64,000 bases of DNA from Bosea vaviloviae (lineage in GTDB: Bacteria > Pseudomonadota > Alphaproteobacteria > Rhizobiales > Beijerinckiaceae): positions 1,975,001 to 2,039,000 of the forward strand of contig NZ_CP017147.1 of the NCBI RefSeq assembly GCF_001741865.1. Reading direction: 5' to 3'. Position 1 is the first letter of the stretch. The number at the start of each line of letters is the position of its first letter. Made by a program: the position numbers and the translations under genes. Positions 5,688 through 10,513 of the stretch are shown in pieces. Under the pieces are notes generated by a model. The model was given only the letters and a program-made list of their open reading frames with translations. It had not been told where the DNA came from and did not search any database.

Positions 5688-6977
5688 CTAATGTCCTGAA
5701 GCCGCCGCACTCAGGCGGGCGAAAAGATCCTGTCCTGGCTGCAGACGCCGCAGGATGTCGCAAAGGTCAAGCGTCGCGACAGGCTGATCGTGCGTCGTGC
5801 CGTGGAGAACCACGTCGTAGCGCCCCTCCCGGCCGACCAAAGTGAGGTCGGCGCCACCCGGATGGGCGCAGGATTTGGCACAGCCCGAGACATGCAGGCT
5901 CAGGCCCCGGGCCAAGAGCGGCGCGGCAGCTTCGGCGAGCCGCGCGGCATCGCTCATGGCCTCGGTTTCGGCGCGCAGGCAGGCCGGTTTGCCGGCGCAG
6001 GCCTGGACCCAGAGGCGTGGATCCTCGTCATGCGTGATCAGGCCTAGGCCACCGGCCTCGCCGAGCCAGGCCTGCGCCGAGGCTTCGCTCAGGCCGAGGC
6101 AGGCAAGCCCGCGCCAGGGCGAGAGGCGTAAAGCGCGCGTGCCTTGCGCCTCGGCGGCGTGGCCGAGGGCTTTCAGCGTGGCAGCGTCGCAGCGGCCGAA
6201 GGGCAGGCCGGCGATGGCGGCGAAGCGGCCAGTGCCGAGCGCGAACAGGCCGGCACGGCGGGAGGCATGGCGAGGTGGTGGTGCATCGGTTTCGGGCAGG
6301 TCGCAGAGAGCGGCGAGCGCCTCGGGCGACAGATCGCGCAGGCGGCGGATCGTCTCGCGCGCCTGGGCGTGATGCCCGGCGAAGCGACGCAGGATCGTCT
6401 CGACGGCCTCGACCGTATCCGCAACGGCGATCGGCCCGCGCCATGAACCGTCCGGCAGGCCGATCATGATGCGGTCGGCCGCGATCGCCAGGAGGCGCAG
6501 ATCGCAGGCGAAACCGTCGAGCGAGAGCGTGCCTCCGCCATCGACGATGATCAGGAGTTTCGCCGGAAGCCCGGCTACGAGCCGCCCGCGCGCTTCGATC
6601 GCTTCTGCCAGCGCGGCGGCGTCGATCATCTCGCCGTCTCCCGCCAATGGCGAGATCAGCGTCAGGCGCTGCGGACCGTCGCCGTCATGCTCGTCGACAA
6701 GGCGTTCGCCCAGCAGCACTGCTACCAGCGCCGGATGGCTCTGAGCCGTCAACCCGCGCAGCTGCATGTTGCCGCGCGCGGAAATCTCGATCAGCCCGTT
6801 GCCATGCTCGCGCGCCAGGGTGGCGATGCGGATGAGCTGCGTGGGCGTCAGAACGGCTCCGGGCGGATGCAGCCGCACCAGCCAGCCATCACCGGTCTCC
6901 ATCGGCTTCAACGTGCTCGGGCACCAGCCGCGCCGCAGCGTTGCCGGGGGCGCGCGTCCGTGCGGAAGCGCGCTCAT
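5688..6977 (-). CDS. cobG: Precorrin-3B synthase CobG (oxygen-dependent)
   Basis: CobG is the oxygen-dependent monooxygenase that makes precorrin-3B; its presence marks the aerobic route. The 429-residue product resembles nitrite/sulfite reductases. The N-terminal RRGWCPSTLKPMETGDGW is followed by RGNMQLRGL. The Fe-S cluster cysteines lie near the C-terminus in CAGKPACLRAE and HVSGCAKSCAHPGGAD. The ATG at 6977 overlaps the cobN stop (ATGA). An in-frame extension upstream overlaps cobN in another frame and was not used. Confidence 0.94.
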   Translation of the reverse strand: MSALPHGRAPPATLRRGWCPSTLKPMETGDGWLVRLHPPGAVLTPTQLIRIATLAREHGNGLIEISARGNMQLRGLTAQSHPALVAVLLGERLVDEHDGDGPQRLTLISPLAGDGEMIDAAALAEAIEARGRLVAGLPAKLLIIVDGGGTLSLDGFACDLRLLAIAADRIMIGLPDGSWRGPIAVADTVEAVETILRRFAGHHAQARETIRRLRDLSPEALAALCDLPETDAPPPRHASRRAGLFALGTGRFAAIAGLPFGRCDAATLKALGHAAEAQGTRALRLSPWRGLACLGLSEASAQAWLGEAGGLGLITHDEDPRLWVQACAGKPACLRAETEAMSDAARLAEAAAPLLARGLSLHVSGCAKSCAHPGGADLTLVGREGRYDVVLHGTTHDQPVATLDLCDILRRLQPGQDLFARLSAAASGH

Positions 6978-9900
6978 TCCGCGGCCCGTGCGAGAAAAGC
7001 CGCGACCGAATTGCGCCGGCTCGTCCACAGGCCGCGCCGCTCGGCTTCGGCCAGTCGATCGCGGATCGCGTTTGCTGCGGGAGCATTCGCCGCTTCCAGT
7101 GCGCTCCAGATCGCCGGATCGGCGCAATAGGCCTGGAAGACGGCGTCGAACAGCCCATCCGCGACCGCATCCGTGCTCGCCGCGAAAACGAAAAGCGTAT
7201 CGACGGCCTCGGCCAGTTCCGCCGCACCGCGCCAGCCATGGGCGAGCTGGGCCGCGATCCAGCGCGGATGCGTCAAGCGGCCATGGACGATGCGGGCGAT
7301 ATCCTCCGTCAGCGTGCGCGCCTTCGGTGCCTCGGGGTTTGAGGAGTCGAGGCTGTAGAGCGCGGGATTGGCGCCGAGTGATGTGGCCGCTGCCGCAAGC
7401 CCGCCGATGACGTCCGCTGCGCTCGAGGCTTCCAGGATGTCGCGCCCGGCCGTGTCGCTGACATGGATGAAGGCCTGCGCCGCCCTGATGCGTTGCGCGA
7501 AACCCGCATCGGCCGTCGCTGCGCCCTCCGCTCCGCCATAGGCATGGCTGGAGGCGGCGAGATAGGCCTCGGCCAGTTCGCCGCGCGTCGTCCAGTCGCC
7601 GTCGAGGGCGCGGTCGGCCATCGCCGCGCCATAGCGGCCGGGCGCCGCTCCGAAGATGCGCGCCCCGGCCTCGCCGCGGCGCTGTGCGGCGGCGGGCTCG
7701 TTCCAATCGTCGGGCTCGTCGAGGGCCGCAACCGCGCGGGCGGCCGCATCGAGCAGGGCGATCTGGCCGGGAAACGTGTCGCGGAAGGCGCCGGAGATGC
7801 GGATCGTCACATCGAGGCGCGGATGCGTCAGCTTCGGCTGCGGCGTGATCGAGAAGCCCGTCACCCGCGTCGAGGCATGGTCCCAGAGCGGCTCGACGCC
7901 CATCAGGGCGAGCGCATGCGCGATATCCTCACCGCCCGAGCGCAGGGTCGGCGAGGCCCAGAGATCCATCACGATCCGGCGCGGATACTCGCCATGCTCC
8001 TGCAGATGGCGCGCGATCACGGCTTGAGCGGCGAGGCTGCCCAGCCTTGCCGCAGCGCGTGTCGGGATCGCGCGCGGGTCCAGCGTCGAGAGGTTGCGCC
8101 CGGTCGGCAGCACATCGGGCCGGCCGCGATGCGGCGAGCCGGCGGGGCCGGGCGGCACGAAGCGGGCATCGAGCGCGCGCAGCAGATTTGTCCGCTCGGC
8201 CTCGGAGGAGGCAGGGTCGTGCGCCGCTTGCCCGAAAATATGCAGGCCGTCGCGGAAGGGCAGTTCGGAGATGTCGCAGAGTTGCGCGTCTAGTCGCGTC
8301 AGGGCCTCGCTCATCTCCATGGCGGGCGTGACACCGCAGGCCTGGCTGAGCCCGCTGGCTTCTGCCCGCTCGCGGATCTCGCGGGCGACGATTCCCGCCC
8401 GTCGCGGATCCATCACTTGCGCCTGCGAGAACTCCTCGACGAGATCGCGCAGCAGCGCCACCTCACCGCCGGCCCCGGTCTCGGCTAGTTCCGGCGGGAG
8501 ATGGCCGAGCGTGATCGCCGACAGCCGGCGCTTGGCGGGCGCTGCTTCGCCGGGATCATCGACCACATAAGGATAGATCACCGGCAGGCCCTGGGTGATC
8601 AGGCGCGGCCAGCAGGAGGGCGAGAGCGCGACCGTCTTGCCCGGCAGCCACTCCATGGTGCCATGCGTGCCGAGATGGATCAGCGCGTCGATGCGCAGGG
8701 TCTCGCGCAAGCCGAGATAGAAGGCGAGATAGGCATGGCCGGGCGGGGCGTCCGGATCGTGATAGCGCGCCTTGCGGTCGGGCGTGGCATCGCGCCGTGG
8801 CTGCAATGCGATGGTGAGCTTGCCGTGGGAGACGGCGCGGAAGCGGAAGGCGTCGCCGTCGGGACTAGGCTCGCCATGGGCAGCGAGAAGCGCGTCGCGG
8901 GCCGCCGCGGGAATGCCGTCGAGCCAGGCGCGATAGGCCGGGAGCGGGACGGTGAAGTCGGCGGGGCCGGTGGTGAGCGCTGCCATGAGCGCGGACGCAT
9001 CCTCGCCGTGACAGGTGGCGACATCGTACCCCGCCCCCGCCAGCAGCTCCGAGATCGCAGCCACGCTCGCCGGCGTATCCAGCCCGACCGCGAATCCGGC
9101 CCGGCCGCCGCGTGCGGGATAGTCCGACATCACCAGCGCGAGCCTGCGTTCGGCGACTGGCTTGGCGGCGAGCGCGATCCAGCCGGCGGCGAGATCGGCC
9201 AGCGCCGCGATGCCTTCGGGATCGGGCAGGAGGCGGCGGATGACGAGGCCGGTCGCGGCATCCGTCACATCCGCCTTGAACGCGACGGGGATGGTTCCGA
9301 GCCTGCCGTCGAATTCGGGCAGCGCCACCTGCATGGCGAGATCGACGGCCGACAAACCGCGCGGCGAGGCATTCCAGGCCTCGCGCGCGCTGCCGACGGG
9401 TACGGCCTGCAGCACCGGGCAATCGGCGGTGTCGAGCACGAAATCGCCGCCCTCGCGAGCCGAGAAGGCGGTGGTGGTGACGATCAGCGCGGGTTTGCGC
9501 AGGGCGATCAGCGCCGCGAGCTCTGCCGTGACGGCGGGGTCCTTCAGGCTGGTCAGCGCCAGGATCAGCGGGGCGTGGCCGCGCGCGGCGAGAGCAGCGG
9601 AGATAGCCTCGGCCATGGCGGTGTCGCCGGCGCTGACGACGGAGCGATAGACCAGGATGGGGACGAGCGAGGTATCGGTGGGGAGGGCGGCGAGCGCCTC
9701 GCGCCAAGGGACGGGAGTTGCGCCCGCGCCGAGCGCAAAGAGCGAGGGGAGCGGAAGAGGTGCGAACTCGCAAGCATCTCGCCTTCCCTCATCCGCCTGC
9801 CGGCACCTTCTCCCCATCAAAGTCGGCTGTTGCCGACTTTGACACTCAGGGTTGCCCATCTCGGGCAAGCCCGAGATGGGAGGGGAGAAGGGCGAAGCTG

Positions 9901-10513
9901 CCGCCGCCTCATCCTTCTCCCCACCAATCTCGGGCTCGCCCGAGACTGGATCTTGGGTGCGCATGTCGGAAACATCCGACATGCGTTGGAGAAGGTGGCC
10001 CGGCGCAGCCGGGTCGGATGAGGGAAGGGAGGCGCCGAGATAATCCCCGATCCGCCCCAGCAACCGCCGCATGTTCTCGGCGCCGCCACCGGCATGGAAA
10101 TAGCCCAGCAATTCGGCCGCGAACTCCGCCGGCACGGTGCCGTGTTCCGCCAAGCGCGCATCCGGCCGGTCGTCGCCCGGCAGCACGGCAAGTGCGATAC
10201 CATCGCGCCGGCAGGTCTCGGTCAACTGCTCGACGCCGTAGCGCCAATAGTCCAGCCCGCCGAGGCAGCGCACCAGCACGAAACGGCTCTTTGCCGCCGT
10301 CTTCTCGACCAGCAGGTCGACCGACAGCGGGTGCTTGAGCTGCCTGAGCGAGGCGAGCCGGACATCGAACCCGCTCACCCCAGCAGCCACGGCGATCGCC
10401 GAGAGATCGCTGTCGGCATAGGACAGGACCAGCACATCCCCCGGCGGCAAGGCGAGGTCGACGGCGTCTTCGCCGTCGTCGAGCCTGATCTCGCTGGTCG
10501 GGAGAAGGTGCAT
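6974..10513 (-). CDS. cobN: Aerobic cobaltochelatase subunit CobN with an in-frame repeat insertion
   Basis: CobN is the large, substrate-binding subunit of the CobNST chelatase that inserts Co2+ into hydrogenobyrinic acid a,c-diamide using ATP hydrolysed by CobS/CobT (not in this window). The 1179-residue protein has the expected CobN/magnesium-chelatase H signatures such as IHLGTHGTMEWLPGKTVALS and RNLSTLDPRAIPTRAA. Residues ~162-244, translated from 9782-10028, are unlike the rest: they are encoded by a multi-hairpin palindromic repeat that keeps the frame open. Without it the chain would be ~1096 residues. The ATG lies 6 bp after cobW and the stop overlaps cobG. Confidence 0.95.
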   Translation of the reverse strand: MHLLPTSEIRLDDGEDAVDLALPPGDVLVLSYADSDLSAIAVAAGVSGFDVRLASLRQLKHPLSVDLLVEKTAAKSRFVLVRCLGGLDYWRYGVEQLTETCRRDGIALAVLPGDDRPDARLAEHGTVPAEFAAELLGYFHAGGGAENMRRLLGRIGDYLGASLPSSDPAAPGHLLQRMSDVSDMRTQDPVSGEPEIGGEKDEAAAASPFSPPISGLPEMGNPECQSRQQPTLMGRRCRQADEGRRDACEFAPLPLPSLFALGAGATPVPWREALAALPTDTSLVPILVYRSVVSAGDTAMAEAISAALAARGHAPLILALTSLKDPAVTAELAALIALRKPALIVTTTAFSAREGGDFVLDTADCPVLQAVPVGSAREAWNASPRGLSAVDLAMQVALPEFDGRLGTIPVAFKADVTDAATGLVIRRLLPDPEGIAALADLAAGWIALAAKPVAERRLALVMSDYPARGGRAGFAVGLDTPASVAAISELLAGAGYDVATCHGEDASALMAALTTGPADFTVPLPAYRAWLDGIPAAARDALLAAHGEPSPDGDAFRFRAVSHGKLTIALQPRRDATPDRKARYHDPDAPPGHAYLAFYLGLRETLRIDALIHLGTHGTMEWLPGKTVALSPSCWPRLITQGLPVIYPYVVDDPGEAAPAKRRLSAITLGHLPPELAETGAGGEVALLRDLVEEFSQAQVMDPRRAGIVAREIRERAEASGLSQACGVTPAMEMSEALTRLDAQLCDISELPFRDGLHIFGQAAHDPASSEAERTNLLRALDARFVPPGPAGSPHRGRPDVLPTGRNLSTLDPRAIPTRAAARLGSLAAQAVIARHLQEHGEYPRRIVMDLWASPTLRSGGEDIAHALALMGVEPLWDHASTRVTGFSITPQPKLTHPRLDVTIRISGAFRDTFPGQIALLDAAARAVAALDEPDDWNEPAAAQRRGEAGARIFGAAPGRYGAAMADRALDGDWTTRGELAEAYLAASSHAYGGAEGAATADAGFAQRIRAAQAFIHVSDTAGRDILEASSAADVIGGLAAAATSLGANPALYSLDSSNPEAPKARTLTEDIARIVHGRLTHPRWIAAQLAHGWRGAAELAEAVDTLFVFAASTDAVADGLFDAVFQAYCADPAIWSALEAANAPAANAIRDRLAEAERRGLWTSRRNSVAAFLARAAE
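9782..10028. repeat. Composite palindromic element inserted in frame within cobN
   Basis: The ends are inverted: CCTTCCCTCATCCG on the left and CGGATGAGGGAAGG on the right. Inside are four further hairpins at 9819-9840 (9 bp arms), 9855-9880 (11 bp arms), 9928-9945 (8 bp arms) and 9960-9985 (11 bp arms). Two CCTTCTCC arms (from 9806 and 9913) pair with GGAGAAGG arms (from 9885 and 9988), so it looks like two tandem units. An intergenic relative with the same CCCTCATCC/GGATGAGGG ends is at 34482-34592. Confidence 0.9.

Follow-up and report, generated by a model that had tools for sequence, protein, structure and literature searches.

How does a long palindromic repeat come to lie inside a protein-coding gene without closing its reading frame? 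The question is raised by cobN of Bosea vaviloviae, found in a window of 64,000 nucleotides (the whole stretch of DNA analysed here; G000:C1:1975001-2039000, part of a 6.7-Mb Bosea genome). At 9782-10028 of this window lies a palindromic element that is read, in frame, as residues 162-244 of CobN. It consists of two half-units of a hairpin repeat that is widespread in Hyphomicrobiales, paired so that their tails point outward. The pair probably entered the CobN linker early and only once, and its present distribution and variety would reflect later losses and the replacement of its modules under a reading-frame filter.

A paired hairpin repeat in cobN

Three parts make up each half-unit: the tail, which reads CCCTCATCC or the complement of this, the stem module, which is variable, and the arm pair CCTTCTCC..GGAGAAGG. 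In the window each arm pair holds a two-hairpin cassette; arm-to-arm lengths are 86 and 83 nt, compared with 23 nt when the cassette is absent. The features are as follows (window coordinates).

6974..10513, minus strand: cobN host gene, frame open through 1179 codons with no stop
9782..10028: in-frame palindromic element, CobN residues 162-244, two inverted half-units
9782..9795: outer inverted arm, low side, 14 nt, 100% complementary to 10015-10028
9795..9804: stem module (variable, short form; GCCTGCCGGC), low-coordinate half-unit, 10 nt
9806..9891: first inner arm pair (CCTTCTCC..GGAGAAGG) enclosing a hairpin cassette, 86 nt
9817..9842: cassette hairpin 1
9855..9880: cassette hairpin 2
9892..9912: spacer separating the half-units, 21 nt
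9913..9995: second inner arm pair, enclosing the other hairpin cassette, 83 nt
9924..9949: cassette hairpin 3
9960..9985: cassette hairpin 4
9997..10015: stem module (variable, long form), high-coordinate half-unit, 19 nt
10015..10028: outer inverted arm, high side, 14 nt, perfect

An earlier note, made from the letters of the window, had described inverted ends, four internal hairpins, nested CCTTCTCC/GGAGAAGG arms and two units side by side. All of these could be located: the ends pair perfectly, the nested arms start at 9806/9884 and 9913/9988, and the two units are the inverted half-units. Folded as DNA, 9770-10040 reaches -103.4 kcal/mol, compared with a mean of -54.0 (sd 4.0) for dinucleotide shuffles (z -12.4), and none of 200 shuffles folds as stably. 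A search of 9600-10200 against Rfam gave 27 matches (E up to 1), none at the gathering score; the best were microRNA models that match any long hairpin.

The 1179-residue frame, reported as open in the same note, encodes a genuine CobN by its match to Pfam PF02514 (856.5 bits) and to two NCBIfam CobN models, which exceed their cut-offs. Its nearest named relatives are the proteins of Bosea sp. OK403 and Bosea psychrotolerans. The aligned linker stretch measures 107 aa in the window CobN and 25-27 aa in most element-free Bosea CobN; the figure of about 82 inserted residues is therefore correct. The description of these residues as rich in Pro, Ser and Ala and low in complexity barely holds: the share of the three amino acids is 34% in the insert and 31% in the protein overall, and the insert uses 18 residue types.

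The same linker across Bosea

Is the insert peculiar to this strain? In 61 Bosea genomes searched, 51 cobN loci were available, the remainder having no CobN orthologue or a broken contig. Residues 162-244 are not private to the window CobN: the element is recognised by motif in the linkers of 22 of the 51 loci (16 full, four full with cassettes, two partial). Motif remnants occur in six more, that of L121 being a single hexamer, and neither element nor remnant is found in the other 23. All 51 linkers are multiples of three in length and in frame. The inserts have a common peptide pattern, PSS..HLLP.GEK..FSP.GRR..DEG, and two element-bearing linkers (L117 and L142) read the element in another frame. 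On a cobN tree of 49 of the loci (L126 and L167 were dropped), the window and the three other cassette-bearing loci group as a single, fully supported clade.

Tails inside and tails outside

Closely spaced half-unit pairs number 34 in the fetched stretches of the window's own genome, and in every one the tails lie inside; the same holds for 19 of 19 pairs at 24 other fetched loci. At cobN loci, 17 of 17 pairs have their tails outside. When the distance limit is widened, two tails-outside pairs appear in the own genome: one is cobN and the other is the junction of two adjacent tails-inside elements. Comparison of the plain cobN element with the 61 Bosea genomes gave 17 full-length contiguous matches among the matches listed, and every one lies inside cobN. 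The case for the contiguous tails-outside arrangement being limited to cobN within Bosea is strong but not complete. A single origin is favoured because these full-length matches all lie in cobN, whereas pairs elsewhere in the own genome face the other way.

The insert had been called an element of intergenic type. This is true of its halves, which are common to dozens of noncoding copies. It does not extend to the whole, whose tails-outside arrangement is atypical.

A proposed reading-frame filter on module turnover

Stem modules in cobN are 10, 13 or 19 nt long, and all 40 that were counted are 1 mod 3, compared with 63 of 87 noncoding modules in the own genome. Spacers between the half-units are multiples of three in 20 of 20 cobN cases, and the 21-nt spacer recurs in 16 of these 20 linkers. 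A length of 2 mod 3 is found for all three cassette arms in coding copies of the own genome vs 17 of 33 noncoding ones; genus-wide, this applies to seven of seven matched cobN cassette arms, a single 67-nt row (L160) being a pattern over-run.

Stem modules vary between species, each side independently. For example, genome G001, which belongs to the clade of the window (synonymous divergence, dS, of about 0.2), retains the right cassette with its diagnostic CCTGAGTG stretch and has different stem modules on both sides. The left half of the G044 cobN element matches noncoding half-units of six other genomes without a difference, over 54 nt in G023 and over 53 nt in G000 (the window's genome), G001, G004, G006 and G026; outside the element, cobN of G044 differs from that of these six genomes at a dS of 0.54-0.78. 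We read this identity as probable homogenisation with the repeat pool; the alternative would be the recent insertion of a half-unit.

One entry or many?

The following sequence of events is proposed. The tail-outward pair would have entered the cobN linker early in the history of Bosea. Many lineages would then have lost it by in-frame deletion, some of them leaving the remnants seen in six linkers. Stem modules and cassettes of the copies that were kept would have been exchanged piece by piece, noncoding copies being the probable donors in recombination (gene conversion), and an exchange would have survived only if it left the frame intact. The same filter would also have let other copies of the family into loops of glyS and ileS.

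Several points weigh against this proposal. The element-free state changes at least 11 times on the cobN tree of 49 rows, which independent insertions could also explain; presence is therefore scattered, and either one old insertion has often been lost or insertions have recurred. At most 14 first-look candidates were scored per Bosea genome, so that noncoding tails-outside copies may have been missed, and full-length matches to the tail-outward element do occur in other genera of Hyphomicrobiales. The 40 module counts are not independent because the cobN sequences are related. Stem modules of 15 and 20 nt occur in glyS, where total length alone keeps the frame; the 1 mod 3 rule therefore applies to cobN specifically. 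Stem modules occur in both orientations, some pairs being reverse complements, as separate insertions would predict. Finally, gene conversion is inferred from sequence likeness and was not directly observed.

Could a mobile tail-outward element have jumped many times, independently, into a permissive CobN linker? The scattered presence on the tree fits this account, as do the two orientations and several stem types at the cobN site and the full-length copies in other genera. CobN of Microvirga has received other repeats near the same place, and the glyS and ileS loops have also been hit. However, within the limited scoring no contiguous tail-outward copy was listed outside cobN in Bosea, the 21-nt spacer recurs in most filled linkers, and no target-site duplication was seen. 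Repeated insertion is rather unlikely on this evidence.

Is the inserted peptide of use to CobN?

Under the proposal of one early entry followed by losses and frame-filtered replacement, the peptide itself probably does nothing specific. In five pairs of Bosea cobN, the ratio of nonsynonymous to synonymous divergence (dN/dS) is 0.14-0.17 outside the insert and 0.59-1.19 within it. Purifying selection acts on the remainder of CobN but not on the insert; cobN therefore looks functional, with the insert merely tolerated. In the AlphaFold model of CobN, residues 162-246 have a predicted local distance difference test (pLDDT) score below 50, the mean of the model being 75.4, and this low-scoring stretch falls between the matched ranges 25-163 and 262-637. 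The insert-bearing linker is thus predicted to be disordered and to lie between the first and second CobN domains, in agreement with the earlier suggestion that the insert is tolerated between the N-terminal part and the rest of the protein.

A selected linker or domain, conserved for its peptide, might be suspected from the retention of the element in 22 of 51 Bosea cobN linkers and from the recurring peptide pattern. This is very unlikely given the dN/dS and pLDDT values of the insert, the 23 cobN genes that lack the element, and the two linkers that read it in another frame. The mostly intergenic location of REP-like elements (PMC3733652) might lead to the notion that the window cobN is decaying, or results from faulty assembly, and is interrupted by the element. 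This is refuted on present data by the frame without a stop, by the low dN/dS outside the insert and by the same linker element in independent assemblies (for example L031, L036, L112, L113 and L161).

The repeat family beyond cobN

How common is the family in the window's own genome? The cobN element has 119 matches there (40 of 99 first-look candidates scored) and a cassette-free relative has 115 (40 of 100 candidates scored), while the motif CACCTTCTCC occurs 128 times vs five times for a reversed control. In the fetched stretches 66 repeat footprints were catalogued, ten of them shorter than 60 bp; the catalogue covers these stretches only and may be incomplete. The idea of the earlier note that the insert is one copy of a genomic repeat is therefore borne out.

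The same note had called for a count of copies inside genes. Some frame is open through the footprint plus 30 codons on each side in 24 of the 66, and third-position GC is at least 0.80 on both sides in the open frame in three, namely cobN and two in glyS; 63 other footprints are left. It was considered whether the family is intrinsically coding, and this finds no support: in 37 noncoding footprints of at least 150 bp, an average of 1.14 of the six frames is open, compared with 1.79 in shuffles and 2.42 in random 210-bp stretches of the window.

A RAYT/IS200 transposase was also considered as the mover of the family, since GTAG REPs are associated with RAYT tyrosine transposase genes, but is not favoured. 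Y1_Tnp matches are found at one place only (G000:C1:3105870-3106888), where three adjacent IS200-type matches lie within about 1 kb at 3.106 Mb, one with an in-frame stop. No catalogued footprint lies nearby, that is, between 2.9 and 3.4 Mb, in a catalogue that may be incomplete.

The motif CACCTTCTCC is also contained in the start of cobN itself (window 10501-10510, ATGCACCTTCTCC, encoding Met-His-Leu-Leu). This is probably chance because MHLL begins most of the CobN proteins compared.

Beyond Bosea, a survey of 150 Hyphomicrobiales genomes from 90 genera, with at most five candidates scored per genome, found the half-unit family in 34 genomes and 22 genera. Conservation of the segment in distant CobN proteins, a possibility raised in the earlier note, is not seen: the cobN element is absent from 53 of 53 CobN linkers of the other genera examined. 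Long linker inserts are present in CobN of two Microvirga (L053, 3559-3729; L055, 3547-3735) and a moderate one in Alsobacter (L098). Both Microvirga linkers carry repeats of other families in frame. The L055 insert is made up of two such repeats, for which there are 70 matches in the genome of L055 itself and 61 in the L053 genome.

Comparison with known repeats

It was through Rickettsia, a genus in which experiments in the native host are difficult, that in-frame palindromic repeats became widely known. Among the free-living species of Bosea, a single site in one gene exists in filled, emptied, inverted and module-swapped states; the entry of repeats into proteins, their loss and the possible homogenisation of hairpin repeats by gene conversion are therefore directly addressable.

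According to PMC10969869 and PMC2229807, Rickettsia palindromic elements (RPE) and the Wolbachia palindromic repeats are about 100-150 bp long, lie both between and inside genes, are in frame in unrelated conserved genes and are thought to be tolerated at the protein surface. The Bosea element is similar in being in frame in conserved genes (cobN, glyS) and also noncoding. It differs in genus and, by description, in sequence family, in the mosaic nature of its half-units, in having one arrangement found only in cobN, and in the occupation of the same loop across a genus.

Dimers of GTAG/CGTC REPs, which have tails and heads, have been reported within open reading frames, among them tRNA synthetase genes of X. 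oryzae, E. litoralis and S. alaskensis; two recB genes also carry REPs at nearly matching positions (PMC3733652, Di Nocera et al. 2013). GTAG REPs bear their tag at the foot of the stem, and CGTC REPs have an unpaired CGTC, TGTC or CCTC tag, an 8-9 bp stem, a loop of 4-5 nt and a CCA tail. Within 9782-10028 there is neither GTAG nor CTAC, and neither CGTC nor GACG; the sole TGTC (9964) lies inside a paired stem. In contrast to these REPs, the cobN element is longer, has optional hairpin cassettes of 60-64 nt and recurs in the same linker in 22 of 51 Bosea cobN genes.

A further parallel is the Rhizobium-specific intergenic mosaic elements (RIME; Osteras et al. 1995), reportedly mosaic palindromic repeats of Rhizobiales that are intergenic, going by the title. 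The Bosea half-unit, with its presence in 34 of the 150 Hyphomicrobiales genomes, resembles RIME by description only. Small mobile sequences of the MITE, RU, ERIC and NEMIS kinds have open frames fused to genes, as outlined in Delihas 2007 (PMC2759123) and PMC2229807. The cobN element shares terminal inverted repeats with MITEs, in the form of its 14-nt perfect arms; no target-site duplication or TA termini were seen in the Bosea elements, and no transposase appears to be linked to them.

The principle is already known, since RPEs and intragenic REPs have been published. In the open-licence literature, with papers on Bosea judged by title and the start of the abstract, nothing was found in print on such repeats in Bosea or CobN. 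New, to our knowledge, are the family in a coding role, the genus-wide CobN slot, the locus-specific arrangement and the in-frame turnover of modules.

Related elements in glyS and ileS

Which other proteins carry the family? The own glyS encodes the beta subunit of glycyl-tRNA synthetase (866 aa, L199:103-2703; TIGR00211, 688.5 bits) with two in-frame inserts. Site 1 lies between residues aligned to 289 and 292 of the E. coli-type chain 7yse_C, and site 2 just past the stretch aligned up to residue 555, where the alignment is weak. The sites were placed by alignment to E. coli-type GlyRS chains only because a five-sequence AlphaFold model had a mean pLDDT of 34.4. The peptide of these inserts was also found in records P0005-P0012, four of which are GlyS and four IleS, and the repeats in glyS and ileS seem to be accommodated as flexible linkers.

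Among the 30 best-matching glyS loci, site 1 holds the element in two and another insert in three. Site 2 holds the element in nine, in three of which the right-hand palindrome is a different one; another insert or remnant is found there in three, one locus was not assigned by the patterns, and L278 appears to be empty. Both sites are empty in the nearest sisters, G001 and G032, which do carry the cobN element. In G008 site 1 holds another palindrome and site 2 the element. By eye, the filled allele at site 1 replaces part of the loop seen in G001 and G032 with no target duplicated, a state that later change might have produced. In ileS the element is found in three of 30 loci (L287, L288 and L290), none of them in the own genome.

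Identity between the two own glyS copies is 97% over 108 nt. Between own glyS copy 2 and the copy in ileS of G059 it is 95% over 119 nt, and no noncoding copy from the fetched loci exceeds 87% over a comparable length. This ranking is suggestive only because the loci were partly fetched by similarity to the glyS-type peptide. With all candidates scored, the four best matches lie in glyS or ileS and lack stops, and many, though not all, noncoding matches have stops in that frame. It is possible, if somewhat doubtful, that two things hold together: the Bosea CobN linker would be a standing slot rewritten from the hairpin-repeat pool, with a tail-outward pair unique to the locus in the genus and modules recombined under the frame filter, and a separate sublineage would be a coding cassette passed between aminoacyl-tRNA synthetase genes.

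One search of 220-700-aa proteins found no third host family for the glyS-type peptide; it returned one 252-aa protein, on a contig of 1971 bases, with a PF05746 domain that is also found in GlyS. Several other long open frames were rejected as hosts, since by eye their flanks lack the coding third-position GC signature on both sides in the frame of the element. For annotation, it should be borne in mind that long linkers of GlyS, IleS and CobN in Bosea are repeat-derived.

A different in-frame palindromic insert, with the peptide RQSAIG..PLPTA, occupies glyS site 1 in L270 and L273 and site 2 in L266 (genomes G008, G011 and G020). Residues ~585-650 of the own GlyS, before the motif DLLSFFHDRLK, differ strongly in sequence and length among Bosea species.

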